Below, piece after piece: positions 9,501-35,592 of a DNA stretch of 37,085 nt. A program made the position numbers and the translations under genes. The DNA comes from a virus. The stretch spans positions 1 through 37,085 of IMG/VR virus record IMGVR_UViG_3300031972_000817; one strand, 5' to 3'. The stretch's first letter is position 1. Every line of letters begins with the position of its first letter. Below the pieces are notes generated by a model that was not told the origin of the DNA, did no database searches, and saw only the letters and a list, made by a program, of their open reading frames with translations.

Positions 9501-12500
9501 CACTATTTGAACAAGGATTATTTACAAAACAAGAAGAACAAAAATTACGACAAGCTTCTAGAAAATATTTTATTAAAAAATATAAAATACGTGAACGTTA
9601 TAAAGGATTTAATTTAACAGAAGCACAAATAGAAGAAGAAGGTATATCCGAAGCATTTGCACAACATGCTATAAATGCTCAAGTAGAAGTAGGCGTAATT
9701 AAAACTTTATTTAATCGTTTGTTAGGATACTTACTAGCATTACGTGAAGCTTTATTTAGTACAGGTTTCGACACTATAGATAAAATATTTGACGCTTCAC
9801 AAATAGGATTAGTAGGTAACAGATATGCAGGTAAAGCAGCTAACGAAAGAAACCGAACTACAATATATAACACCTCAATTACACCAGTTGGAATTACGAC
9901 AAATGATTCACCTTTATTTTCAATAGCATTTAATAAAAATATAAATGAAGTAAATGAAATTTATGGAACTACATTCGGTGGCGAAACTAGTCCAGACACG
10001 GTAAAAACAAACAGAAATCAAAACAACGGTACGGGTCGTAAATTAGAACGTGAAATAGATGCTGCCAAGAAATCTAATCCTAATTTAATTAAAGATAAAG
10101 ATATTAATTCTTTCTCTAGAATTATGAACTATGCATCTGAGTGGGCACAAAGTATACCATTGTTTGGTTTTATGTTTAGATCTATACAAGCTATGGATCA
10201 AAAAGCAAGAGACATACAAGCAGAATTTGTTACCTTAATGGATTTATATATTAAGGTTGCTAAAGATCCTAAGGCAAAAGCTTTATTAGATAAAGCACAT
10301 ATGATTTCTCAAGAACCTATAATAGTCAATGGTAAACTTGTAAAAAATAATACACATTATCGTATGGATCAAACAGGTAGAATTACATTTGTTGCTTCTC
10401 GTGACAGAAAAAGTGGAGGTGCTAATCCTGTAGAAATTAAAGAAGGTGAAGTTATTATTTTAGAAGGTGACACAGCACAAGCTTACGAAGATTCTCAAGC
10501 AGCAATGAACTATGTAGTAATGGAAGACATGAGAGGTAAAGTAGCTAGTACTTTTATAGATAATATAAAAGATGCAATTTCATTGTTACAAACAGAAGAA
10601 GTGCAAAATGTATTACGTATATCTGGTTTACCTGATTTAAATACAATGACAGATGATCAAATTGAAAATATCACATTTAGTGATGTAACATATATTGTAC
10701 GTTCATTACAAACTGCATTAGAATATCCAACTATACCTACTACGATTAAATCAAGAATTGAAACTGCATTAGGTAGTGATGGTGAAGTTAAAACAAGTTT
10801 ATTTGCTTTACAAGAAGAATTTGCTAAAGTTAACAGGTGGCAACAATCAGACTATGTACCTTTTCAAAGACACGGTAGTCATTATGTTATTGTTAGACAA
10901 GCACCAAATGAAGAAGAATTAAAAGCTGATCCTAAAGCTAAAGGTGCTCTTATACATTATGAACATATAGAAGCCGATATTAATCCGTTGTCTAGAGAAA
11001 CTCAATTTAATAAAGTTAGACAAAGATTACAAGAAGAGTACGCAGGTGAAAATGTTACAATATCAGACATTAAAAAAGTAAATCTAGCTGAATTGCAGAA
11101 TACCGTAGGTAGAGAATTTAACGGCATAGACAGTATGTCACAATACTTATCAGAAGCTAATCAACAAAAATACGCTGAAGCTAGAAAAGAAATGAAAAGT
11201 GCATTAGGAAAAATTACCAATGAAAATATAAAAGGATTTGATGCTTTTGTTACAGGGAGACAAAAAGTAGGTGGTGTAAATGGGTATGATGGTGATTTTG
11301 TAAGAGGTATATTAAACTTTGGTTTAATGGGTTCTGAGTATGCGGCTAGAAATAGATTTATGCCTGAGATAAATAGTAGATATACTTTATTTAAAGAAAA
11401 TTATGATTTAGGCACTAACATTAGAAAAGGTGTTGATAAATGGTACACATATAAAGTAGAAGATCCAACACAGGAATGGTCACAATTAAGACGTGCAGGT
11501 TTCTGGTGGTTCTTAGGTGGTAACGTATCTTCAGCTTTATTACAAACAATGTCTTTAGTACAATTTACTGGGCCTATGTTAGGTTCTTTTGCAGGCAACA
11601 CAAAAGCTGCCGCCGCATTAAGTGTAGGCTTTAAAGATGCAATGAAAATGATTTCATTTACAAAAAATCAACATGGTGATTTATTTTTAGATTTTAGTAA
11701 AGTACCTAGTGATATTAGAGAAGAAGTCATGGAAGCAGTACGTAAGGGTATAATAAAACAAGGACAACTATTACAAGAAATTGGTATGCCAGTAGGACAC
11801 CCTACAGCAGCAGCTAGTGCAGAGGGTACGGCTAAAAGAAAAATACACGATTTTGAAATGACTGTAGTAGGTGGTGCATTTAATACTATGGAAACTGTAT
11901 CACGTATGGCAGCATATATTGCCGCTTTACGTTTAGCTAGAGATCCAACTGTATTAGCAAAAGCAGACGAATATTTTCAAGGAAATGGTTTATGGGAAGC
12001 TATGCGATTTGAAAGAGCAGGAGGGGCAATAACTCCTCAAATGCTTGCGGAATTTATGACAGATCGTACTTTTGGTTTGTATGGTAAACTAAACAGAAAC
12101 AATATTGCTAGAGGTTTTGGATCAGTAGCGTTCTTGTTCACAACATATATTGGTCAAATGTTTGCACTAATGTATAGATCATTTACATCTGGAGAAACTG
12201 AAGCACAAAAAAGAGTTGGTCGTAGAATGTTTGCAAAGATGATATTAGCTATAGGTATCACAGGTGGATATATGGCATTACCTGGAGTTGATGATGCGGA
12301 AGATTTCTTTAGTTGGGTAATGAGTCAAGTTACAGGTGTTAAGAGAGATTACAGTGATCAATTTAAAGATATGATTGAATCTGCTATAGGTGAAAAAGGA
12401 GCTGAAGCTATGCAAAACGGTATTATCAATGCCTATGGCGGTATGGATATACAACGTAGAATTGGTTTTGGTCAATTACCAGGTTCACAACAATTTAAAG

Positions 12501-14741: not shown

Positions 14742-14750
14742 ATTATAGCA
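14742..14750 (-). promoter_or_regulatory. Extended -10 promoter for the lysis genes
   Basis: On the minus strand this reads TGC TATAAT, a perfect -10 with a TGN extension. The -35 region (TGTACT at 17 bases) is poor because it overlaps the terminator hairpin just upstream. It would restart transcription for the small ORFs, endolysin and holin after the upstream unit has been terminated. It matches other extended -10 sites in the leftward arm. Confidence 0.55.
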
Positions 14751-14751
14751 G

Positions 14752-14777
14752 AAAAGGGGACTGAAGTACAGTCCCCC
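14752..14777 (-). terminator. Intrinsic terminator after the metallophosphoesterase gene
   Basis: On the minus strand GGGGACTG, a five-base loop and CAGTCCCC form an eight-base-pair, GC-rich stem followed by TTTT. It begins about ten bases after the stop codon of the phosphoesterase gene. The next promoter follows at once, separating two transcription units. Confidence 0.75.
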
Positions 14778-14785
14778 AATCAACT

Positions 14786-16015
14786 TTAAGCTGCCCAAGA
14801 AAGCCATTGATTCTTGGGTTTTATAGTCAATCCTTCCTCAGAAATTACAGGGACTTGGAATGTTATTCCATACTTTGGATGGGTAAACCATAAAGCTTGT
14901 TTAGGTATCTCATATTCAAATCTTGCACTTTTAGCATACTCATCATATCCCTTCAAAGATCCGTTTACTAATGCACCTTTTAACTGTAAATATTGGTGGT
15001 AGTGACCCATGATTAATTGATCAATAGGTTTATTTTGATTAGCATACTCTGCTTTAACTTTTTGTACACCTCTAGAAATAGGGCCAATCATACCAATCAT
15101 TCCAGAACCACCACGTACACCCAATCTATCGCCATGAGTTAGTAAGTATGTAGTGTCATATACTTTATAATAAGCATCATACCCTGTAGGTATCATAAAC
15201 TGCACACGATCATCACCTGCATTTTTAAAATGTTTTTCTAACATATTGTATAGCATCCAATCATAACTAGTTTGTGCGGCTTGTTTATGTCTGTATTGTT
15301 TATACATACGGCCATGATTACCATAACACGTAGGTACAAATACTTTACCAAAAGTATCTGCTAGAGATTTAATAGCCCATGTAAGCATATCAAATAATTC
15401 TAATACGTGTTCTAAATTTGTACCGTCATTTGTTTCTGTTAATTCATCATGAATATTACCTGACATCATGTCACCACCGAGGGGCACAACTATGCCTGGA
15501 TATTTAGGGTTTACCATATGATTCGTACAAAGATCTATAGCTGTCTCAACAGTAGACTTTAATCTCTGTTTGGCTATTTCTTTGTTGTATAGATTAAGAC
15601 CATCAACAGCTGTTTTATCTACAACTTCACCGTAGTGAAAATCAGATAAGAACAAAGTAGGAACACCAGGTGCCCCTTTTGCGGGTGATGATTTGATTAA
15701 CCATTTAGGCGGCTTAGGCGTATGTTCCGAAAGCTTGAATACTGTCTTACGGATTTGTTCTGCAGTTATGTTTTCGTGAGCCAATTCTTTGATCTGCTCT
15801 TTCAGATCTTTGACTTGTATTTCATACGCCACTTTTTGTTCGTACAAAGCCGCCTCTGTACTCGGTGCTACCACCGTTGGTGTTATGTTTTCGCGTTCCG
15901 CCGCATCTAGTCTACTAACTAAGGTAGTACGGGGAATGCCTAATTTTTTAGCTGCGTCAGCTTTACTGCCACCAGCTAATATGACAGAATTAACTGCCTC
16001 CTGTAATTTGTCCAT
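14786..16015 (-). CDS. Calcineurin-like metallophosphoesterase with N-terminal HTH
   Basis: 409 residues. The first 40 (GGSKADAAKKLGIPRTTLVS) form a Fis/HTH_8-style helix-turn-helix; a coiled-coil linker covers about 55-95. The rest holds the full metallophosphoesterase signature: D125-x-H127 (LFLSDFHYGE), GGD at 180-182, GNH at 232-234, H294 (LLTHGD) and GHYH at 337-340, so a two-metal active site looks intact. Such enzymes cleave phosphodiesters or phosphomonoesters; the HTH suggests it acts on or near DNA. The substrate is unknown. It is the last gene of a unit ending in a terminator at 14752-14777 and lies among late genes. Confidence 0.8.
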   Translation of the reverse strand: MDKLQEAVNSVILAGGSKADAAKKLGIPRTTLVSRLDAAERENITPTVVAPSTEAALYEQKVAYEIQVKDLKEQIKELAHENITAEQIRKTVFKLSEHTPKPPKWLIKSSPAKGAPGVPTLFLSDFHYGEVVDKTAVDGLNLYNKEIAKQRLKSTVETAIDLCTNHMVNPKYPGIVVPLGGDMMSGNIHDELTETNDGTNLEHVLELFDMLTWAIKSLADTFGKVFVPTCYGNHGRMYKQYRHKQAAQTSYDWMLYNMLEKHFKNAGDDRVQFMIPTGYDAYYKVYDTTYLLTHGDRLGVRGGSGMIGMIGPISRGVQKVKAEYANQNKPIDQLIMGHYHQYLQLKGALVNGSLKGYDEYAKSARFEYEIPKQALWFTHPKYGITFQVPVISEEGLTIKPKNQWLSWAA

Positions 16016-16041: not shown

Positions 16042-16317
16042 TTATGCGTTTAAATCATCAAGCATATCTTGAAAATTTATATTTTCTCTTTCTTTTTTGT
16101 TTTGAATTGTTTCGTCAAAAGCTTGAACTTCCATACAATACGATTGTACATAAGATGTTCTGCCTCTTTGTTCTTCTACTGATGATACGTAGTTTTCTAC
16201 TTGAACTTTGAGACTTTCACATATTTCTTTTGTGTGATAAGCCGCAAAACCTTGGTATCCTACAGTAGGAGCATACGGTGTTGTCACTAGCACCATTAGA
16301 AACCATAATGTTGTCAT
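16042..16317 (-). CDS. Small exported or membrane-anchored hypothetical protein
   Basis: A 91-residue protein with a hydrophobic N-terminus (MTTLWFLMVLVTTPYAPTVG) that looks like a signal peptide or anchor, then a soluble domain with two Cys (EICESL and SYCMEV) that could form a disulfide in the periplasm. The C-terminus is acidic. Its ATG overlaps the preceding stop as ATGA, so it is translationally coupled. Near lysis genes such a protein could be a spanin-like or envelope factor, but no lipobox or spanin motif is seen. Confidence 0.6.
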   Translation of the reverse strand: MTTLWFLMVLVTTPYAPTVGYQGFAAYHTKEICESLKVQVENYVSSVEEQRGRTSYVQSYCMEVQAFDETIQNKKERENINFQDMLDDLNA

Positions 16318-16490
16318 AATTTATCCATTGTTATTTGAGCTAAACCTCTCCAATAATCTTTTACCTTTAGGTTTAAATTATCCCATAAACGTAATTGAAT
16401 TTTTCTAGGTACACTATGCATGTATAATTTTTTTGCTAGTTTATCAAAACGTGTATGCATTGGATATTTAGGATGTTTTTTTAAAATCAT
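16314..16490 (-). CDS. Basic 58-residue hypothetical protein
   Basis: Reads MILKKHPKYPMHTRFDKLAK and continues with LYMHSVPRKIQLRLWDNLN. It is basic with several Trp and Tyr. The start lies inside the end of the upstream 108-codon gene (23-base overlap) and the stop overlaps the next ATG as ATGA. Tight coupling on both sides and a coherent amphipathic sequence support a real gene. The family is not recognised. Confidence 0.6.
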   Translation of the reverse strand: MILKKHPKYPMHTRFDKLAKKLYMHSVPRKIQLRLWDNLNLKVKDYWRGLAQITMDKL

Positions 16491-16794
16491 CTTTAGCTTT
16501 CTGTTTAATATATTTTATAATGTCTTTTATAATCAAAGTTTTATCTTTATTTTTCCAATGATTGATATAAAATTTAATACTGCTTTTGTCTAATACATCA
16601 GCAGCTTCTTGTAAAGGCCAACTCATTAAGTAAGCCAAATCTGTTTTAATGTTTGATAAGAGTCTGTACGATTTAGGAAATTTTTTTATTGGTAATTTTT
16701 TATATTCACCTGTAGTAGCTTTTACACAATGTATATATTTTCTTTCGGTTTTTATAAACCAGGGATAACTCCCTACGTCAACTAATTTCCACAT
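16468..16794 (-). CDS. Hypothetical basic protein, first gene after the 16.8 kb terminator
   Basis: A 108-residue, lysine-rich protein (MWKLVDVGSYPWFIKTERKY...). The first half has aromatic beta-like strands; residues about 55-100 are helical (YLMSWPLQEAADVLDKSSIK) and might form a small DNA-binding fold, though no family is recognised. AGGGGATAATAATATG gives a good ribosome site. It is the first gene downstream of the promoter-terminator unit at 16814-16960, so its expression would require read-through of that terminator or another promoter. If the unit works as an antitermination leader, this gene heads the late lysis operon. Confidence 0.6.
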   Translation of the reverse strand: MWKLVDVGSYPWFIKTERKYIHCVKATTGEYKKLPIKKFPKSYRLLSNIKTDLAYLMSWPLQEAADVLDKSSIKFYINHWKNKDKTLIIKDIIKYIKQKAKDDFKKTS

Positions 16795-16813: not shown

Positions 16814-16848
16814 ATAAAAAAAGCAGCCAGGCTGATCCCAGCTGCTTA
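16814..16848 (-). terminator. Strong intrinsic terminator
   Basis: On the minus strand AAGCAGC (16847-16841) pairs with GCTGCTT (16827-16821) and is followed by an unbroken run of T residues. The loop can pair further (GG with CC). It stands between nrdB and the lysis-side genes and about 75 bases after a promoter, with no ORF between. Confidence 0.8.
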
Positions 16849-16925
16849 GTAAGAGATCTTTAAAACCAACTCGTCCTATTAAGGGTACGGGATAGAGTTC
16901 GTAAAAAAGTTTGTGCCCCCCTTAT
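16816..16925 (-). ncRNA. Candidate small RNA or antitermination leader, about 110 nt
   Basis: The predicted transcript starts near 16925 and ends in the T run at about 16816. It contains no ATG-initiated ORF. Besides the terminator hairpin, AACT/AGTT and CTAT/ATAG pairs enclose a CCCGTACCC loop near the middle. The 5' end carries GGGGGGCAC. Two readings fit: an independent phage small RNA, or a leader like lambda PR'-tR' whose terminator is overridden late to express the lysis genes. No known RNA family is recognised. The evidence is promoter plus terminator plus lack of coding. Confidence 0.55.
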
Positions 16926-16931
16926 TTTGTA

Positions 16932-16960
16932 ATAATAGCATACCTTCGACCAAAAGTCAA
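16932..16960 (-). promoter_or_regulatory. Sigma70-type promoter of the 110-nt unit
   Basis: Minus strand: -35 TTGACT at 16960-16955, 17-base spacer ending TATGC, -10 TATTAT at 16937-16932. The spacer end and -10 are identical to those of the Sak4 operon promoter at 25975-26003 (TATGCTATTAT). The -35 sits just after the nrdB stop. Confidence 0.75.
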
Positions 16961-16962
16961 GA

Positions 16963-17922
16963 TTAAAATGCATCATCCCACGTTCCTGTGAGAGATCCTT
17001 TATTATACTCCGTTGATCTGTTCTCAAAGAAATTGGTATGTTCTACACCATTTACGACCCAATCCACCCATTCTAGGGGATTTTCTTTAACACCGTAATT
17101 TGGTTTTAATCCTAGCTGTAATAATCTACGGTCTGCTATATGTCTTATATATTGCTTAACATCATCTGGCTCTAACCCTTCTATTGGGCCAAATTCAAAG
17201 GCTAAGTCAATAAATCTGTCTTCTAAGTTAACCATATCTCTACATATATCATATAAGGTTTTCTTAAATTCATCATTCCACACTTGTGGCTTTTCATCTA
17301 ATATTTCATGTAACAATTTAATCATGTTCTCTACGTGGTGAGATTCATCACGAATTGACCATGCGACAATTTGTCCCATGCCTTTCATCTTACCAAAGCG
17401 TTGAAAGTTAAGTAACATAACGAAACTGGCAAATAACTGCAAGCCTTCACCAAATGCAGAAAAAACCGCCATATCTCTAATCATCTGCTCGTCTGGTGTG
17501 CCCCCTTTGTTCTTCCAAAGGTATTCATGTTTATCATTCATTGCTTTTATTTCTTGAAAAGCTTTATAATCTTTATCATCCATACCTATTGTATCATTTA
17601 ATAATGAATAACTGTGAGCATGATTAGCTTCACTTGTGGCTATAGCTGATAACATCATACGTATTTCTGGCTGTTTAAACATAGGCATATACACATCCAT
17701 ATATGCTTGGGCTATGTCAACATCACCTTGTGTAAAAAACGTCAGTATTTGTTTCACTAAATGTTTTTCGGGTTCTGTTAATCTATTGTTCCAATCATTC
17801 ACATCTTCGTGTAAAGGTACCTCACTTGGCAACCAATGCATTTTCTGTTGTTCATCGTAAGCTTTAAAAGCCCACTCGTACATAAATGGTTTATAATAAT
17901 CTCTTGCTTTAAATACTGACAT
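16963..17922 (-). CDS. nrdB: Ribonucleotide reductase class I, beta (radical) subunit
   Basis: 319 residues, near the usual length of a phage R2. The di-iron ligands are visible: D67 (TQGDVDIAQAY), E98 and H101 in SEANHAH, E159 (FGEGLQLF), E193 and H196 in RDESHH. Tyr105 is seven residues after E98, the spacing of the radical tyrosine in E. coli R2, so a classical tyrosyl radical is expected. The C-terminus (TGTWDDAF) would dock on the alpha subunit. It generates the radical used for reduction of ribonucleotides to deoxyribonucleotides during phage DNA synthesis. It follows nrdA after 17 bases in the same transcript. Confidence 0.95.
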   Translation of the reverse strand: MSVFKARDYYKPFMYEWAFKAYDEQQKMHWLPSEVPLHEDVNDWNNRLTEPEKHLVKQILTFFTQGDVDIAQAYMDVYMPMFKQPEIRMMLSAIATSEANHAHSYSLLNDTIGMDDKDYKAFQEIKAMNDKHEYLWKNKGGTPDEQMIRDMAVFSAFGEGLQLFASFVMLLNFQRFGKMKGMGQIVAWSIRDESHHVENMIKLLHEILDEKPQVWNDEFKKTLYDICRDMVNLEDRFIDLAFEFGPIEGLEPDDVKQYIRHIADRRLLQLGLKPNYGVKENPLEWVDWVVNGVEHTNFFENRSTEYNKGSLTGTWDDAF

Positions 17923-17939: not shown

Positions 17940-19700
17940 TTAAGCTTGGCAAGATAAACATTCATCTTCTTCTGCATCTTTCCTCACTACTCGTTCTACT
18001 TTGTTAGCCACTACTTCCGCACGGTTCATAGCTTCACTTCTTAAATAATATAATGTTTTTAATTTTTTAGACCATGCTCTTTTATGTATGTTATTTAATT
18101 TACGTACATTCACATCTGGTGTAAAGAATAAATTTAAGCTTTGTGCTTGACATATATATTTTTGCCTATCTGCAGCTAAATCAACAAGCCATTCTTGTCC
18201 TAGTTCTATTGCTGTTTTATAGGTATCTCTTTCATCTTTAGATAATTCTGTTAAGTGTGCAACTGATCCTTTATTAGTAATGATACTTTGCCACGTTTGT
18301 TTATTGTTTAAACCTTTCTCTTGTAAAAGTTTTTCAAGATTAGGATTTTTCATTAGAGCCGATCCGCTTAATGTTTTTTGTGTAAAGGCATTAGCACGTA
18401 ATGGTTCTATACTAGGAGATACTCCACCACATATAATAGAACTACTTGCGTTTGGTGCAATAGCCAGCATGTGAGCAAAACGTTTGCCCGTGCCTTTCAT
18501 ATCACTTGGAGAACCTCGCTCTTTACCTAGTACTAAATTAGATTCTAATGCTTTAGTATGTATATGTTTAAATATAATTTTATTCCAAGATACTGCCACA
18601 ACTGATTCCATAGGTACACCTTTACTTTGTAAAAATGTATGAAAACCCATAGCACCTAAGCCAACAGATCTTTCTGATTTTGCACTAGCTATTGCTCTCC
18701 ACATATGTGAAGGTGCTTTGTCAATAAAATAGCTGAGTACATTATCTAACATACGCATTAAATCATCTATAAATAATTCATTGTCTTTCCATTCTTCAAA
18801 CTTTTCTACATTAACACTAGACAAACAACACACTGCTGTTCTATCTTCACTTGTAGCTAATGTAATTTCACTACATAAATTAGAGTGTGTTACTTTTAAC
18901 CCTAAATCTTTTTGTGTTTTAGGTAAACCTCTTTGTACAGTATCTCCGAACATAATATATGGCTCACCTGTAGAAACTCTTGCTTCTAAAATTTTAATCC
19001 ATAATTGTCTAGCTTTTACTGTCTTTACTTTTTCTTTAGAGTTAGGATCAATTAAATCCCAAGGCTCATCATTTTCCATAGCTTTCATAAACTTATCAGA
19101 TACTACTACACCATGATGCAGGTTAAGATTCTTTCTGTTAATATCTCCACCTGCAGGTTTGCGCATTTCAATAAACTCTACAATCTCTGGGTGTGATATA
19201 TCCATATAACTAGCATATGATCCTCGTCTAGTTGCCCCTTGGTTAAATGCAATCATTTGAGAGTCCACTACGTGCATGAAAGGAATTACCCCTGTAGTTT
19301 TGTTACCTTTACTCGTAGACTGCCCCTGTGAGCGAATATGGCCCCAATAACCCCCTATTCCGCCTCCCATACTAGACAACCAGATATTCTCAGTATAGTG
19401 CTCTGCTAAACCATCTCTACTATCATTAACATAATTCAAGAAACAAGAGATTGGTAATCCTCTATCTGTACCACCGTTAGATAAAATAGGAGAAGCAAAC
19501 ATAAACCATTGATTTGATACATAGTCATACAATCTTTGGGCATGGGCTGCATTGTCAGCAAATGCGGCAGCAGCACGCACGAAAGCATCTTGGGGTGACT
19601 TCTCCTCAGGCAACATATATCTGTCCTTTAGGATTTCTATACCAAATTTGGTTAATAACTTATCTTTTTCGTAGTCAGGGGTCGGTGGTTTAATCTTCAT
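17940..19700 (-). CDS. nrdA: Ribonucleotide reductase class I, alpha (catalytic) subunit
   Basis: 586 residues, shorter than cellular NrdA because it starts directly in the catalytic core; no N-terminal ATP-cone is present, so dATP overall-activity inhibition is probably missing. Catalytic residues are seen: C86 (PISCFLNY) and C291 (AVCCLSS) as the redox pair, N274-x-C276-x-E278 (NLCSE) in the finger loop, and the YY pair in LKTLYYLRSE for radical transfer. The C-terminal CLSCQA supplies the thiol shuttle. With NrdB it makes dNDPs or dNTPs. An upstream promoter at 19740-19768 makes nrdAB its own unit. Confidence 0.95.
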   Translation of the reverse strand: MKIKPPTPDYEKDKLLTKFGIEILKDRYMLPEEKSPQDAFVRAAAAFADNAAHAQRLYDYVSNQWFMFASPILSNGGTDRGLPISCFLNYVNDSRDGLAEHYTENIWLSSMGGGIGGYWGHIRSQGQSTSKGNKTTGVIPFMHVVDSQMIAFNQGATRRGSYASYMDISHPEIVEFIEMRKPAGGDINRKNLNLHHGVVVSDKFMKAMENDEPWDLIDPNSKEKVKTVKARQLWIKILEARVSTGEPYIMFGDTVQRGLPKTQKDLGLKVTHSNLCSEITLATSEDRTAVCCLSSVNVEKFEEWKDNELFIDDLMRMLDNVLSYFIDKAPSHMWRAIASAKSERSVGLGAMGFHTFLQSKGVPMESVVAVSWNKIIFKHIHTKALESNLVLGKERGSPSDMKGTGKRFAHMLAIAPNASSSIICGGVSPSIEPLRANAFTQKTLSGSALMKNPNLEKLLQEKGLNNKQTWQSIITNKGSVAHLTELSKDERDTYKTAIELGQEWLVDLAADRQKYICQAQSLNLFFTPDVNVRKLNNIHKRAWSKKLKTLYYLRSEAMNRAEVVANKVERVVRKDAEEDECLSCQA

Positions 19701-20269: not shown

Positions 20270-21516
20270 GGAAAAACCAAATTCCCTTCAACTTTAATGT
20301 AACCCGAATCTTCCATAGCCTGTATAGTTTGTGTCAACTCACCAGGATTTGGAATCTTGCGTAGTAACTCACGTTTAAAATGTTTAATAAGTAGATGTGA
20401 TCTACCATTAGTAAATAGTGTATCGTTTAACCAAATAGTCATATCATATGCAATCTTACCAGTTCTGCCCATACCAAAACCTTCTAGTGCTTTTGGCATA
20501 TGCTTTTCCATATCACGCATTAGTTCTTTGGTGTACTCCCAATCTTCTAACATAATCTTTCTTGTACCTCGTCTAGAAGCTGATACTGACATAGCTACTT
20601 TTATATGATGTGATATTCTTCTTTGATTATATTCTGCTAGATGAGGGGCAGTAGGTTCTGGTGGAATACCTGCCTCTATATCTGCATTGACTTCATCAAA
20701 ACAATCTGGATCAAATGTCATCGGCCCATACATTTTTGCTATCGCACCTAAATCGTGTCTTAAATTCTCTACCGTATTATCTGATACTTTAGTCTGTAAT
20801 AAACTCTGAGCAATTTTCGGCCCATCATAAAACACAGGTATCATTCTTGATAATAAACCTTGTGACCTAGCATCTTCTGGTAAGTTCTCTACAAATTGTT
20901 CTGGTGTAGCACAAGCTATCCAATTCAAGCAAGGCCCGTTAATAACATATTCTCCTGCAGTTTTAGTTTTATGGCTATAAGAATCTTTGCTATCCCACAT
21001 ATCTGTAAGAAACATCTGTAAATATCTATCTGTTCTAGACATAAACGCACCAAACTCTGATGTAACTAAAGTTACAGAAGCGTCATGAAATTCTTCAATC
21101 TGTGGACTACTTAATCGCATATCAATACGTTGCAACTTACACATATCTACTGCCAATTTTTCGGGTGTGATCCTATCTTGTATAGAATATAATGGGTACT
21201 TACGCAATCCATATTGATCTAAACCAGAATTAAAATTAGAATCATCTTCCGTAGTTCCTACAGGTGTAGTCAATTTACTAAACACTTTTGAATAAGGTAA
21301 TATTAAAGAGACGGACTTATTTCTGCCAGGATTTGCTATGAGTGTAATAAATAAATTACTCCTAATATCATAGTTAGCCATAGGAAACCATACTCTCCTT
21401 CCAAGTGCCCCCGCTACTGCAGACAAAGCTGACCACACAGCAAATGGCTTAGGTATAGGACTACCTTTTAAAGCATCTGCACTAGCTTTTAAATAATCAG
21501 TATAGTTTCTAACCAC
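20248..21516 (-). CDS. DUF3987-type replicative helicase / primase-helicase-like ATPase
   Basis: 422 residues. FAVWSALSAVAGALGRRVWF (about 25-44) and the P-loop-like ANPGRNKS at 61-68 match phage DUF3987 proteins, a RecA/DnaB-related ATPase group. The P-loop is non-canonical, with Asn before the Lys. A Walker-B-like TLVTSEFGAF lies at 149-158 and an arginine-containing GLLSRMIPVF further on. No primase zinc finger or TOPRIM domain is present, so a separate primase is missing or unrecognised. It overlaps the polymerase gene by eight bases and is the best candidate for the replicative helicase. Confidence 0.7.
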   Translation of the reverse strand: MVRNYTDYLKASADALKGSPIPKPFAVWSALSAVAGALGRRVWFPMANYDIRSNLFITLIANPGRNKSVSLILPYSKVFSKLTTPVGTTEDDSNFNSGLDQYGLRKYPLYSIQDRITPEKLAVDMCKLQRIDMRLSSPQIEEFHDASVTLVTSEFGAFMSRTDRYLQMFLTDMWDSKDSYSHKTKTAGEYVINGPCLNWIACATPEQFVENLPEDARSQGLLSRMIPVFYDGPKIAQSLLQTKVSDNTVENLRHDLGAIAKMYGPMTFDPDCFDEVNADIEAGIPPEPTAPHLAEYNQRRISHHIKVAMSVSASRRGTRKIMLEDWEYTKELMRDMEKHMPKALEGFGMGRTGKIAYDMTIWLNDTLFTNGRSHLLIKHFKRELLRKIPNPGELTQTIQAMEDSGYIKVEGNLVFPCRKDVT

Positions 21517-23053
21517 TTGGTCTCCATTTCTTCATTGCTTTCCAATTTACACCAGTCTCACAATCAGATGGTATAAGCATTTCTTTTTTATTAACAGTCA
21601 AAGGATTGTGCATACAGTTTAATATTTTAGGTATCAATTCATCTACTTGTTCTGTAGGCATTTGTCCTAAAATTGCATCATGTACTTGGCCTAATACTTC
21701 CACACCTTGTGAATGTAATTCTTGCCAAACTCTATACAAACCTAAGTTTAATAAATCTCCTATTGTAGATTGTGGTACATAAGCAATAGCTAACCGCAGC
21801 GTGGCTGCGTCATCTAACCTAGACCAAAACTGTGTACGTCTACCAAAAGGTGTTATCAACGTACCAGTAGATTGAATCTGATGAGCAGTTTTATCATGCC
21901 AAGTACGTATACCAGGAAATGCTCCTGGAATTTGTAACTGAGCATGTGGGCCTGTGCCTATGATGTTACCATTATCTAGCAACTCTTTAAAACCACCTTC
22001 TTTATCTTGCTTGTGCCATTTTTCTACTTTATCTAATTGTATCACACCTCCAAAATAAAGCAACTGAAATTTTGTTGCTTGTGATATTTTTATTTTTATT
22101 TGTCTACCAAGTGAGTGTGGTGACACACCATAGTTTGTACCATGTCCTGCTCTTTTACAAATATCTCTGTAACTATACTGATGATAATATGGCATATCTG
22201 CTAATGCCCTGTCTTGCTCTGGATCACCAGACCAACCTAGATTAGGCCAAATCATTTTTACAACTTCTGTGTGTAAGTCAGATGTTTCACAAGCATTGAT
22301 ATACCCTTCGTCTCCAGACACATAAGCTGTTACTCTTGATTCCGCTTGTTCTAAATCAGCATAGAACATTGTCATGCCATCATCTGGTATAAACATTTCA
22401 CGCATATCTTTAGTAATATTTTGTAAGTTTGTACCTGTGCCCCACGGTGATTCTTTAGATGACCAACGTCCTGTTTTTGTACCCGCCACTTGATAAGAAC
22501 ATCTTATACGTCCATCATCATCCCTTGTAGTATCTAATACGTTTAGTTGTTTATCTATATTTCGTAATGCTAATATAGTATTGCAAAACGGCTTTGCTCT
22601 AGGGTAATGTTCAGCTAAATGTTCTAATGCTTCTTTGTCAGTAGATACTTTTTGTTTACCTTTAACACTAGCAATAACTTTAGGCAAACCCAAATGTACA
22701 TACAATAAGTCTTGTAATTGTTTTGGACTAGCGGGATTAAGATCTTTATCCCAGACAGCATTAGAAAATAAATTTAACATACGTTCTAATTTAAGTCTCT
22801 GGTCTTTTAGAGGGGCACGTATTGTTCGCACGACCTCCTCGTCAACTTTAAGACCACGCAACATCATGGATAAAGCGGGCCCAATACTGGCTACTTCAAA
22901 CTCATATGTCTTACGTGTAATGTCGTCTAATTTATCATCAATTTTGTGCCACAACTCATTTGTCAAAGCACAATCTAGAGCACAGTATGCCCACAATGTT
23001 TGATCATCATCTAACTTTAGATGAGGTATCTCCGTGTTTTTGATTATCTTCAT
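21509..23053 (-). CDS. DNA polymerase family A, polymerase part with the Exo III motif only
   Basis: 514 residues. The N-terminus starts inside an exonuclease domain: Y23-xxx-D27 (YCALDCALT) is the Exo III motif, but Exo I and II are absent and are found in the gene at 23589-24686. The palm and fingers are complete: TKTGRWSSKESP, motif A with D233 (YADLEQAESR), the O-helix R296/K300/H304/Y308 (RDICKRAGHGTNYG), and motif C with H458-D459 (GQVHDAIL). The residue matching E. coli Phe762 is His304. It replicates phage DNA, presumably paired with the split exonuclease half. The start overlaps the preceding gene by 47 bases. Confidence 0.9.
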   Translation of the reverse strand: MKIIKNTEIPHLKLDDDQTLWAYCALDCALTNELWHKIDDKLDDITRKTYEFEVASIGPALSMMLRGLKVDEEVVRTIRAPLKDQRLKLERMLNLFSNAVWDKDLNPASPKQLQDLLYVHLGLPKVIASVKGKQKVSTDKEALEHLAEHYPRAKPFCNTILALRNIDKQLNVLDTTRDDDGRIRCSYQVAGTKTGRWSSKESPWGTGTNLQNITKDMREMFIPDDGMTMFYADLEQAESRVTAYVSGDEGYINACETSDLHTEVVKMIWPNLGWSGDPEQDRALADMPYYHQYSYRDICKRAGHGTNYGVSPHSLGRQIKIKISQATKFQLLYFGGVIQLDKVEKWHKQDKEGGFKELLDNGNIIGTGPHAQLQIPGAFPGIRTWHDKTAHQIQSTGTLITPFGRRTQFWSRLDDAATLRLAIAYVPQSTIGDLLNLGLYRVWQELHSQGVEVLGQVHDAILGQMPTEQVDELIPKILNCMHNPLTVNKKEMLIPSDCETGVNWKAMKKWRPSG

Positions 23054-23321
23054 GTGCTAATTCTCCTGCTATTGCTGAGTATCCTACCATATCTATATAT
23101 GTATCCATACTCGGGTGTCCAAATTTTGCTCTCGCAACTTTTAATAATACCATGAGGATTGCAACATCTCGTGCTTGTATATCCCTATCTAAATACGCAC
23201 TCCAAAGTCTTGCTATGTTGTCGTGATTTGTTCTCTTGTCCCCATACTCGTCTTCTCTTGCACCATCTAATATCTTTTCAGCGGTGCTTAATATATCTTT
23301 AATCTTTCCGCCAGATTTCAT
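23007..23321 (-). CDS. Small conserved phage protein (DUF6378-like)
   Basis: 104 residues. The pattern EDEYGDKRTNHDNIARLWSA followed by VAILMVLLKVARAKFGHPSM and a closing YIDMVGYSAIAGELA matches a small helical family I recall from many phages (DUF6378-type); the number is from memory. The function is unknown; conserved acidic and histidine residues would allow a MazG/HD-like helical bundle. It lies between the two halves of the polymerase/exonuclease and overlaps both neighbours (47 and 23 bases), so it travels with replication genes. Confidence 0.7.
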   Translation of the reverse strand: MKSGGKIKDILSTAEKILDGAREDEYGDKRTNHDNIARLWSAYLDRDIQARDVAILMVLLKVARAKFGHPSMDTYIDMVGYSAIAGELAHEDNQKHGDTSSKVR

Positions 23322-23589
23322 CGTAACCTCCCATGACCTTATAAAAATCTTCTCTCACTTTTAACGGCTCTAATTCTGCCAAGTAACATACTTCTTCAAA
23401 ATCGTCTTTCTTATATCTAAACCATAACTTTGCTTCTCTCCTATAATTTACAAACTCTTTTACAGTACCTTCGTACTGCATATCTTGTAACGCTTGGTCT
23501 AATACCGAACGCCACAACTGTATGTGATTCTCAACACTCCTATTTTCGGACTCTATGTTTTCAGCCGAAAAGTATTGAGGTCGCTTCAC
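23299..23589 (-). CDS. Small conserved phage protein between the polymerase halves
   Basis: 96 residues; the second half, NYRREAKLWFRYKKDDFEEV then CYLAELEPLKVREDF, resembles a short helical family seen in alphaproteobacterial phages, where the DF..VC.LA..DP..VR pattern recurs. No catalytic motif. The first half contains WRSVLDQALQDM. Its start overlaps the exonuclease gene's stop by one base and it overlaps the next gene by 23 bases. It has no homing-endonuclease features, so it does not itself explain the polymerase split. Confidence 0.65.
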   Translation of the reverse strand: MKRPQYFSAENIESENRSVENHIQLWRSVLDQALQDMQYEGTVKEFVNYRREAKLWFRYKKDDFEEVCYLAELEPLKVREDFYKVMGGYDEIWRKD

Positions 23590-24686
23590 TATTCATCGGC
23601 TTTTGTGCTCTGTGAAAACTTGGCTAATGTTTTCCATGCACTCTCATTTGTATACAATGAGCCGAGAAATCCTAAACCCTTTTGCATTTCGGGTTGATAG
23701 GCGTGGTGGGCGTGCATTGTATCATGTGTCACGCCAGAAACTTGTATGTTCTTTTTGAACGATAGCCATGAAACATCATACGTTTGGTTCTGGGCTACTT
23801 TTGTAATGTTAGTATCTTCTAGTATACGTTTTACCCATTGCCATGCTTTTAATTCATCTTGGTATTTCCAATAATACTCTCCGTCCTTTTTTATAAAAGG
23901 TACAACTAAAGCTGTATTCTTGTTTGGGGCAAATCCTATACACGTAATCTCTCCATTAGCCGTTTCAATATCAAATGCTAAGGGTTCGTCTTCATTATCT
24001 TTATGTATAAATTCAGATTCAAAATCTTCTAAATCTTGTAATGAAGGTTCTAAATAAAGACTACGTTCGTCTCTTATTAATTCTTGTGTTAATGATTCTT
24101 CTTTTGCTTTTACTAAATCTGCAACTACTACAGGTCTAAATTCAAAATTTCTAATAACCGCACTGGGGCTGTAAGTCGGTACGACTTTGCAATCTTGTTC
24201 AAGCAATCCATCACTACATTTCATTACCGAACCTCTATATGTACCAATCTTATCAAGCCCTGTCAGTGCCCATAACGAAGCACTACCCATTGCAATAATT
24301 ACATTAGGTTTTACTTCATTAAGCTCTTTATATAACCGCCTTACATCTTGTTCCATTTCTTGTTTAAGAAACCCATGACCTGTTGGTGGGAAAGGCGATC
24401 TCCACTCTTGTTCTTTACATAACTTTTTATAAGCAAGTCTATTGTGAAAGAAATTTGCTACGTTATCTTGAGCGGGTTTTAATTGGAAAGTGTGAGTGAG
24501 TAAGCATTCATCTGGATTGATGGAGGCAAGTTTGCACATACCTTTCAGTATATCACCTGTGCCCCCAGCTAAGATTGTATTTAATCGAGCCTCTGTTGTC
24601 GAAGGATGATCCATAACTATGGCTATGAACATTTTACCCTGTGACTTTTTAGAATCAAGTCGATTTAAAACTGCATACTCACTCAT
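23589..24686 (-). CDS. UDG-like domain fused to a 3'-5' exonuclease fragment (Exo I and II)
   Basis: 365 residues. Residues 1-195 resemble a family 4/SPO1-type uracil-DNA glycosylase fold: AGGTGDILKGM (40-50), VIIAMGSASLWALTG (129-143), RG at 151-152 and TYSPSAVIR (171-179). The usual His of the HPS motif is Ser173, so glycosylase activity is doubtful. Residues 230-350 are the start of a DnaQ-like exonuclease: D239-x-E241 (AFDIETANG), N300...D304 (QNQTYDVSW), HDTMHAHHAYQPE (321-333), GLGFLGSLYT. Exo III lies in the polymerase gene at 21509-23053. In other phages UDG, exonuclease and polymerase are one chain; here they are split. Confidence 0.8.
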   Translation of the reverse strand: MSEYAVLNRLDSKKSQGKMFIAIVMDHPSTTEARLNTILAGGTGDILKGMCKLASINPDECLLTHTFQLKPAQDNVANFFHNRLAYKKLCKEQEWRSPFPPTGHGFLKQEMEQDVRRLYKELNEVKPNVIIAMGSASLWALTGLDKIGTYRGSVMKCSDGLLEQDCKVVPTYSPSAVIRNFEFRPVVVADLVKAKEESLTQELIRDERSLYLEPSLQDLEDFESEFIHKDNEDEPLAFDIETANGEITCIGFAPNKNTALVVPFIKKDGEYYWKYQDELKAWQWVKRILEDTNITKVAQNQTYDVSWLSFKKNIQVSGVTHDTMHAHHAYQPEMQKGLGFLGSLYTNESAWKTLAKFSQSTKADE

Positions 24687-25133: not shown

Positions 25134-25949
25134 TTAACCTCCTTGTTTTGCTGTTACCTTAGGGGCTTCTCCCCCAAGTTTAGTCTTTGCACTCTTTTGT
25201 ATAGCATCAAAAAGTTTGTGTAAGTCTAAAGGTGCGTTTGGCTCAATTAGACTAGGTGCTGTTACTTTTAAATCCATGCGGTGGTCTGATACTGTGCGTA
25301 GAGTACGTTCTGTGCCTTTACTAGAACTTTTCGTATCAATACGACAAACACAGTTAAAGTATCTGCCAATCTTGGTAGAAAGTTTAGACCCAACACTTGT
25401 AGGGTATGCTTTTGACACACCCATATCTCCCTCCATATATTGCATATGTGAAGTTATGATAACATTACACGGCACTTCACTCCCTGTAAGGTACTGAATT
25501 ACATTCTGTACATCTCGTGCTGCCGTGCCCCACTCTGGCTGCGTTGCCTGGTCGGTGGGTTTCTTATTATTAAATACTAATGCACCTCTCAAGGCTGATT
25601 CGCCCATGAGTGTTAAGCTATCAATAACAAGAACATCTTTATTAGTCCAGTCTTTTACTGAACCTAAATTTTCGTCTCCGTCTTTCCAACTCGATAATAA
25701 TTGAGCGGATTTTCTAAATGCAGTTGCGTGTCCTAATGGATCTTTAAGAGTAACATAAGATACTCTATCTACTGCGTCTGGATTAAGAAATTCTGGAAGT
25801 ATTGCGAGTCCATCATCAAAATCTAATATTCGTAGATTATAACCTGCGTTGGCAAGACTTGCTAAACTAGCTGTCTTACCTGATCCGCTATCGCCTACTA
25901 ATAATAGTTTAGTGACTTCACTCGCTTGGTGATTTCGTATACTTGCCAT
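25134..25949 (-). CDS. Sak4-like RecA-fold ATPase (recombinase)
   Basis: 271 residues. Walker A GDSGSGKT at 19-26 and Walker B VLVID at 106-110 are intact, with LRILDFDDGL between them and a VIITSHMQY sensor strand, as in the phage AAA_24/Sak4 group. These proteins promote single-strand annealing or homologous pairing with an SSB partner, which is the next gene. It is the first gene after a near-consensus promoter and has AGGAG before the ATG, so strong expression of the recombination-replication operon is expected. Confidence 0.8.
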   Translation of the reverse strand: MASIRNHQASEVTKLLLVGDSGSGKTASLASLANAGYNLRILDFDDGLAILPEFLNPDAVDRVSYVTLKDPLGHATAFRKSAQLLSSWKDGDENLGSVKDWTNKDVLVIDSLTLMGESALRGALVFNNKKPTDQATQPEWGTAARDVQNVIQYLTGSEVPCNVIITSHMQYMEGDMGVSKAYPTSVGSKLSTKIGRYFNCVCRIDTKSSSKGTERTLRTVSDHRMDLKVTAPSLIEPNAPLDLHKLFDAIQKSAKTKLGGEAPKVTAKQGG

Positions 25950-35400: not shown

Positions 35401-35592
35401 TTAATTCTTTACACCATGATTTATATAATCAATAAAAGTTTGTTTATTAAATCTTCGGTTATCTTGTTTTGCTGTACTGCAATAATCTTCGATCTTAACC
35501 CTCAACAATTTTTGTTGTTGAGGATTAGTAATTGTTTTAATCATATCAATAAAAAATTTAGCTTGATTAATATAATCTTTTTTACTAGCCAT
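35401..35592 (-). CDS. Small conserved phage/plasmid protein
   Basis: 63 residues beginning MASKKDYINQAKFFIDMIKT and ending KQDNRRFNKQTFIDYINHGV. A helical start plus a DN.RF....F..(Y/C) ending is common to short proteins scattered in phages and plasmids. It is the last gene of the right-end leftward operon, one base after the next gene's stop. Confidence 0.6.
   Translation of the reverse strand: MASKKDYINQAKFFIDMIKTITNPQQQKLLRVKIEDYCSTAKQDNRRFNKQTFIDYINHGVKN

Follow-up and report, generated by a model that had tools for sequence, protein, structure and literature searches.

The junction behind nrdB

The stretch of DNA analysed here (the window) is an IMG/VR virus record of 37,085 bases, and the phage that it represents is marine and podovirus-like. 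Its minus strand carries, in order, small early genes, recombination and replication genes, nrdA, nrdB and the region considered below; the structural genes lie on the plus strand and converge with the minus-strand arm at about 13.16 kb. The nearest named phages are distant, the polymerase matching that of Caulobacter phage Kuura at 37% and a structural protein matching those of Phage DSL-LC04, pelagiphages HTVC023P/HTVC027P and roseophages CRP-901/902 at 31-35%. The best named-phage matches of NrdB, at 71-76% identity, were found in pelagiphages and marine fosmid phages. A host search by genome scan returned one distant match in a Chloroflexota MAG, at 24%, and was uninformative. It must be noted that one clade member, L315 (IMGVR_UViG_2816332439_000002, 60356 bases), has an IMG number resembling that of a single genome, not of a metagenome, and may reveal the host. 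In addition, the DNA polymerase A of the window is split (21509-24686), its exonuclease part being fused to a UDG-like domain and its polymerase part separate. On the minus strand, a strong promoter (TTGACA-17-TATTAT; reverse-complement position 11083) was also found immediately before position 25949, ahead of a Sak4-like gene; it has counterparts in several relatives and is not followed by a terminator.

The features of the junction, a promoter (P1), a leader and an intrinsic terminator (T1), are the following:

16963-17922, minus strand: nrdB, class I ribonucleotide reductase (RNR) small subunit (PF00268, E 7.5e-76), directly upstream of P1
16932-16960, minus strand: P1, TTGACT-N17-TATTAT with extended -10; equivalent promoter in 20/20 long records holding the region
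16913-16921, minus strand: GGGGGGCAC element, between P1 and T1; GGGGG(G)CA[C/G] is equivalently placed in relatives
16865-16902, minus strand: predicted internal leader hairpin (AACUC/GAGUU, UCC/GGA), with a similar stem in the L107 fold
16814-16847, minus strand: T1, intrinsic terminator with an 11-bp stem and T7; terminator at the equivalent place in relatives
16814-16925, minus strand: predicted terminated RNA (leader) of about 112 nt, inferred from P1 and T1

The -35 box of P1 (TTGACT) occupies 16960-16955 and, after a spacer of 17 nt, the -10 box (TATTAT) occupies 16937-16932, with a TG one base upstream of it. The hairpin of T1, AAGCAGCTGGGATCAGCCTGGCTGCTT at 16847-16821, has 11 pairs and a folding energy of -16.3 kcal/mol, and the T7 tract runs on to 16814. 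The promoter and the hairpin with its T run had been recognised in an initial annotation made from the sequence alone, and all 20 long records with the junction, the window among them, bear them out; the spacing given there (75 bases) needs correction, since 84 nt separate the -10 hexamer from the stem. The annotation had also predicted an RNA of about 110 nt with no start codon, which agrees with the leader of about 112 nt (about 16925-16814) predicted here. The leader contains neither ATG nor GTG, and the sole listed ORF across it (17027-16860, 55 codons) begins with TTG within nrdB, in another frame than that gene. The leader folds at -30.5 kcal/mol, a modest gain over shuffled sequences (z -1.96).

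The DNA is AT-rich, and between 10 and 25 kb of the window promoter-like sites were no more frequent than expected (57 against 62.6), with 14 terminator-like sites against 6.5 expected, T1 being the best terminator listed. The combination of the two was rare relative to shuffled sequence: the window, G021 and G024 hold three promoter-terminator pairs, all at the module locus, and 12 dinucleotide shuffles of the same three records gave four pairs altogether. Promoters taken singly are at chance level; their pairing with a terminator is not.

Conservation of the module across the clade

Relatives were collected from IMG/VR via NrdB, the DNA polymerase and a structural protein. A further 22 records were read long or whole (G013 to 20000, G024 to 60000 and G026 to 40000), making 23 long records with the window. 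The junction is held by 20 of these 23, all except G013, G014 and G016, and every one of the 20 keeps the promoter, the GGGGG(G)CA element and the terminator; 19 modules were detected by promoter-terminator scans and that of G012 by a looser scan. Modules with a variant -10 box were present in G020 (TATAGT) and G025 (TATACT), where the element reads GGGGGGCAC (G020, as L123) and GGGGGCAC (G025). Other promoter-terminator pairs numbered only four in the 842,355 bases of the 23 records (G002 21851, G022 42873, G025 23368 and G023 12104), each in a single genome. The comparison with relatives that the annotation had suggested for the region after nrdB is therefore positive, and the module is not a product of chance, because every one of the 20 junction-holding records conserves it; as read from the sequences, it is a conserved arrangement of promoter then terminator at one fixed junction.

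A scan of all IMG/VR contigs with the pattern TTGAC-N17-19-TATNAT-N2-30-GGGGGGCAC gave 71 matching stretches, 63 of them at the module junction in clade members and eight elsewhere (L327, L335, L338, L343, L345, L347, L351 and L368). The comparison of leaders left out L099, L100, L101, L124, L143, L327, L335, L345 and seven ungrouped rows, which are not the module.

Outside the clade, pelagiphage HTVC019P and S42-C7 were rejected as models, the next gene following closely behind nrdB with no module. Neither a module nor enrichment of the GGGGGCA word was found in ct7QV12, Kuura, CRP-901, HTVC023P and HTVC027P, which carry genes related to Mre11, the polymerase or structural proteins (CRP-901, HTVC023P and HTVC027P were scanned over their first 49,999 bases); chance promoter-terminator pairs occur in HTVC023P and ct7QV12. 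Rfam, a further check proposed in the annotation, gave no known family at the gathering score in the window or in six relative loci, and the best sub-threshold match (E 0.0066; 23 bits, the cut-off being 60) was taken as chance. For the pelagiphage Skadi, promoters have been reported, with no terminators or riboswitches in the part of the article consulted (PMC10504331). The module is not described in the titles and abstract openings retrieved on pelagiphage non-coding RNA, on HTVC023P promoters and terminators or on phage small RNA antitermination, a body of text in which subscription journals are thinly covered.

Exchange of flanking genes and the genes behind T1

The genes on both sides of the module have been exchanged. 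In G018, G019 and G021 a 640-aa adenosylcobalamin-dependent RNR stands in place of nrdAB and the module is retained; its L246 copy, within G021, was the one compared and matches TIGR02505 (E 8e-98, slightly below the family cut-off) and the Pfam B12-RNR domains. The first gene behind T1 also differs with the type of leader: x108 in the type of the window (W), a family of about 104-120 aa including x105 in type A, proteins of 126-136 aa including x127 in type C, and x58 in type B. A 198-aa ORF precedes the gene of the 104-120 aa family in L006 (type A). Because the upstream gene and the first downstream gene change while the module stays, the conserved unit, on the evidence of these sequences, is the junction of RNR, P1, leader, T1 and small genes and not a gene-specific leader.

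In the window, T1 is followed by:

16468-16794, minus strand: 108-aa ORF, first gene behind T1; no family match, relatives in just two loci
16314-16490, minus strand: 58-aa ORF (x58), encoding a small protein that types W, A and B all keep behind T1
16042-16317, minus strand: 91-aa ORF, no family match
14786-16015, minus strand: Mre11/SbcD-like nuclease with N-terminal HTH (phrog_284 exonuclease, E 5e-49; HTH_psq, HTH_8)
14755-14777, minus strand: T2, second terminator, after the Mre11-like gene (stem -14.6 kcal/mol)
14742-14750, minus strand: P2, extended -10 TGCTATAAT, directly after T2 and ahead of the putative lysis genes

AlphaFold2 models of x58 (pLDDT 82.5, two helices) and of the 105-aa family (pLDDT about 82 for both) gave no Foldseek match at E <=0.001 that provided a structural clue; for x58, three short matches of 13-15 residues to designed PDB chains were returned, the best with E 0.00013. 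The product of 14786-16015 is presumably an Mre11/SbcD protein, a family in which an N-terminal HTH is unusual, and this HTH-bearing nuclease is a candidate DNA-binding regulator. A promoter after the Mre11-like gene is also found in relatives, a full one in G003 and G005 and one at 19132 in G021. It was also observed that the Mre11-like gene is closely followed by a reversed copy of the element, TGCCCCC, in G003 (9407), G005 (19884), G001 (21101), G002 (20542) and G004 (13941; positions of oriented records), and that in G003 and G005 it falls within the promoter spacer.

The name lysis arm for the genes behind P2 in the window rests on position and resemblance and is only indirectly supported. 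Its 215-aa and 144-aa proteins match only families of unknown function, and we assume the holin label; at a comparable position G011 encodes a 176-aa lysozyme-like transglycosylase (PF18896, E 9e-20). In G010, of type B, a phage lysozyme (PF00959, E 1.2e-11) lies between the small genes and the Mre11-like gene on the opposite strand, and for this reason P1 cannot transcribe it. The same block layout was found in G007, G015, G020 and G024, the identity of the lysozyme being established in G010. In addition, the Mre11-like gene of G024 (type B) has its own promoter at 35470, so that P1 in type B would serve just two small genes.

Leader types, folds and covariation

Across the clade the leader is about 50-190 nt long. 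Type W, comprising the window and L107/L108, measures 106-111 nt from the G-run to the T-run, and the corresponding lengths are 48-90 nt in type A, about 110-125 nt in type B and 50-55 nt in type C. The distance from P1 to the G-run is variable and reaches about 80 nt, for example in L003 and L016. It was noted that the P1 spacers of type C (e.g. L246:15275) are rich in C (CCCCC or CCCCTCC), in the opposite sense to the downstream G-run, with which they possibly form an inverted operator pair.

The stem of T1 in types A and C showed double changes at 10 of its 11 pairs in an alignment of 20 sequences (17 type A leaders and three of the six distinct type C leaders). The type B alignment, made of 16 distinct leaders together with L015 and L016 (18 sequences), showed double changes at 7 of 31 pairs, and in this type a hairpin stem is conserved as UUCUA/UAGAA, CCUUA/UAAGG or UCUUA/UAAGA. 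The annotation had asked for a conserved promoter and a covarying hairpin, and relatives provide both; the stem covariation comes from types A, B and C, type W having two distinct leaders only.

Fold z-scores of -3.2 to -4.7 were obtained for six leaders of types A, B and C, and -1.71 for L107. According to RNAfold, in four leaders of types A and C the G-run and the following C pair with the GCUUUU(U) tail and close the whole RNA, a pairing absent from the minimum-energy fold of the window leader. Where the element ends in CAG (L005, L010 and L229) the tail is CUGUUUU and the pairing is kept. Elements paired with their own tails at -4.59 kcal/mol against -4.34 kcal/mol with swapped tails, and 33 of 5000 shuffles, which ignore relatedness, did as well as the own tails. 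L003 and L006 combine a CAG element with a GC tail, and L010 and L229 are close relatives, so the partner change is suggestive only. In types A and C about three nucleotides split the U run from the stem, and termination there may be weak for this reason. The leader bodies differ among the types and share no common sensor domain, and no conserved leader peptide was seen in the leaders inspected by eye.

The GGGGGCA word

GGGGGCA, of which the leader element is one copy, is among the most over-represented heptamers of the clade: the first 17 records have 8-32 copies each (11-29 times expectation), and six later ones reach 10-24 times expectation. Distant structural relatives held 33 copies against 44.9 expected, other NrdB phages 22 against 16.1, and five outside phages 0-7 copies, never above about twice expectation. 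All 12 copies in the window follow the transcription direction of their arm:

Minus strand: 32427, 31335, 30208, 28242, 24566, 21412, 17505, 16920
Plus strand: 2899, 5758, 6997, 7737

A count over 10 records, taken in ORFs 100 codons long or longer, gave 106 copies in sense and 39 in antisense orientation, a sense bias of about 2.7:1. The means of 300 synonymous shuffles were 8.5 and 1.3, respectively, with maxima of 16 and 5, which corresponds to a 12-fold enrichment in sense. The consensus of 237 distinct sites was aaaGGGGGCAC; these sites are not independent, some copies being shared by descent (e.g. inside nrdB). A Shine-Dalgarno role for GGGGGGCAC was rejected, as no start codon stands at a fixed distance and the genic copies fall in all three frames. 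Stoperators of the L5 type were likewise rejected for GGGGGCA, its orientation being too mixed. Because both strands are enriched, a role at the DNA level seems more likely than one in mRNA only, and it may be Chi-like, operator-like or that of a primase site. The GGGGGCA(C) word offers another, independent way to approach a DNA- or RNA-binding system, and may also point to the host.

Function of the module

Phages without an RNA polymerase of their own must time their genes via the host polymerase. We propose, with about even confidence, that P1, leader and T1 form a cis-acting attenuation module of this phage clade. Its sequence comprises a conserved promoter and a covarying terminator, is independent of its neighbours and has no internal promoter. 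In the leaders inspected, the T run and the ribosome-binding site (RBS) of the next gene are a few to about 20 nt apart; because the two are so near, a promoter does not fit between T1 and that gene, and the genes behind T1 would depend on read-through. A terminator thus lies between the promoter and the first RBS and is structurally conserved, with covariation in types A, B and C, which is the arrangement of an attenuator.

In the proposed mechanism, host sigma-70 RNA polymerase would initiate at P1, right behind the RNR gene, and make a leader of about 50-190 nt that would mostly end at T1. Polymerases passing T1, whether from P1 or from the RNR operon, would reach the small genes and then, in most branches, the Mre11-like nuclease, and read-through of T1 would set the level or the timing of these genes. 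T1 might be relieved by a protein of the phage or a factor of the host, by translation or through leakiness alone. We infer from the arrangement that transcription starts and stops at the module, that passage through T1 is regulated and that a stable RNA is released; it must be considered that a constitutive leaky terminator would look alike in sequence. Should passage through T1 be regulated, its releasing factor would be a new one. Of the annotation's two suggestions, a small RNA or a lambda PR'-tR'-like leader, the common part, a promoter-driven, terminated non-coding RNA or leader, fits these data, and release in the manner of lambda Q does not hold as a general rule.

The main rival to the cis-acting leader is a trans-acting phage small RNA, for which P1 and T1 would be a dedicated gene, with T1 also ending the RNR operon and read-through being incidental. 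The sequestration of both RNA ends in types A and C by pairing of the G-run with the GCUUUU tail, the CAG/CUG partner changes and the low z-scores of the six type A, B and C leaders would all suit such an RNA. However, the leader bodies are not conserved across types and have no common seed besides GGGGG(G)CA, the window leader reaches only z -1.96 and is without the tail pairing, and the partner-change test counts close relatives (L010 and L229) as independent, so that we consider a small RNA unlikely, if worth serious attention.

Less probable still is plain punctuation, in which T1 would end the RNR operon and P1 would be constitutive, with low, unregulated read-through. No regulator is then needed, T1 is well sited to end the RNR mRNA, and the split U runs of types A and C would leak steadily; however, punctuation normally places the terminator first and then the promoter, and here the order of promoter then terminator is kept in every branch together with GGGGG(G)CA.

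A late leader of the lambda PR'-tR' kind, in which a phage antitermination factor would load at P1 and carry the polymerase through T1 into the lysis genes, has been given little probability. The anatomy is the same, the downstream genes are reached only via read-through, and the module precedes the putative lysis arm of the window and, in G011, the lysozyme-like gene. The release of lysis genes put forward in the annotation is not supported, given the opposite strand of the type B lysozyme, the separate P2 and a structural operon without the module: no second module was found there, and that of G024 has a strong promoter at its start with no terminator behind. The annotation had recognised no Q-like gene, and we found likewise no Q-, N- or NusG-like match when 40 window proteins were compared with PHROGs and 18 with Pfam, in a record that is incomplete and in which most small ORFs match nothing. 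Its candidate factor, the 108-aa product, loses its standing with relatives in two loci only for a module that is clade-wide. These observations, as far as sequence can tell, argue against a Q-type late switch for the clade as a whole.

It is also doubtful, at a similarly low level, that GGGGGCAC is a clade-specific dispersed DNA recognition element and that P1 is the promoter by which the system reading this element regulates itself. This possibility draws on the enrichment over shuffles, limited to the clade within the set of phages compared, and on the one copy between P1 and T1 in each junction-holding record. A factor would bind the element downstream of P1 and roadblock or release the polymerase, and elsewhere it would act on DNA or transcription; as a conjecture, it could be the HTH-bearing Mre11-like protein, whose gene closes the P1 operon in most branches. 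Finally, a chance meeting of promoter and hairpin, to which the window's promoter-like sites, as common as in shuffles, might have pointed, is refuted for the sequence feature by the 20/20 records, the 63/71 pattern matches at one locus and the stem covariation.

Comparison with known systems

To our knowledge, the known solutions made of promoter, leader and terminator come mostly from lambdoid phages. Like lambdoid PR'-tR' under Q, the module has a sigma-70-type promoter, a short leader, an intrinsic terminator and no further promoter before the downstream genes; it differs in that no Q gene was found, no module stands at the structural operon and lysis genes are inconsistently downstream. 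Q requires a binding element between -35 and -10 and a -10-like pause element in the initial transcribed region, according to the part of the article consulted (PMC6606751). By eye, neither a direct-repeat binding element between -35 and -10 nor a shared -10-like pause was recognised in the module: the P1 spacers vary among leader types, and TATAAT stands behind the -10 box in L002, L003 and L004 without a pause element that is shared.

As regards the word, the stoperators of cluster A mycobacteriophages (L5) are, in the portion of the source consulted, also a short asymmetric word with many genomic copies, including at a promoter (PMC9283540); unlike them, GGGGGCA is mostly inside genes and on both strands, and no repressor has been identified. 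Chi sites are likewise short words over-represented in phage genomes, as stated in the excerpt consulted (PMC3784561). Chi is set by the host recombinase.

Unlike bacterial attenuators, the leaders of the module share no sensor domain, show no conserved leader peptide in those inspected by eye and match no Rfam family at the gathering score. They resemble bacterial attenuators and leader-controlled operons in having a terminator between the promoter and the first RBS and a covarying stem, in one module at one junction that a whole clade of uncultured marine podovirus-like phages has kept despite the exchange of flanking genes.
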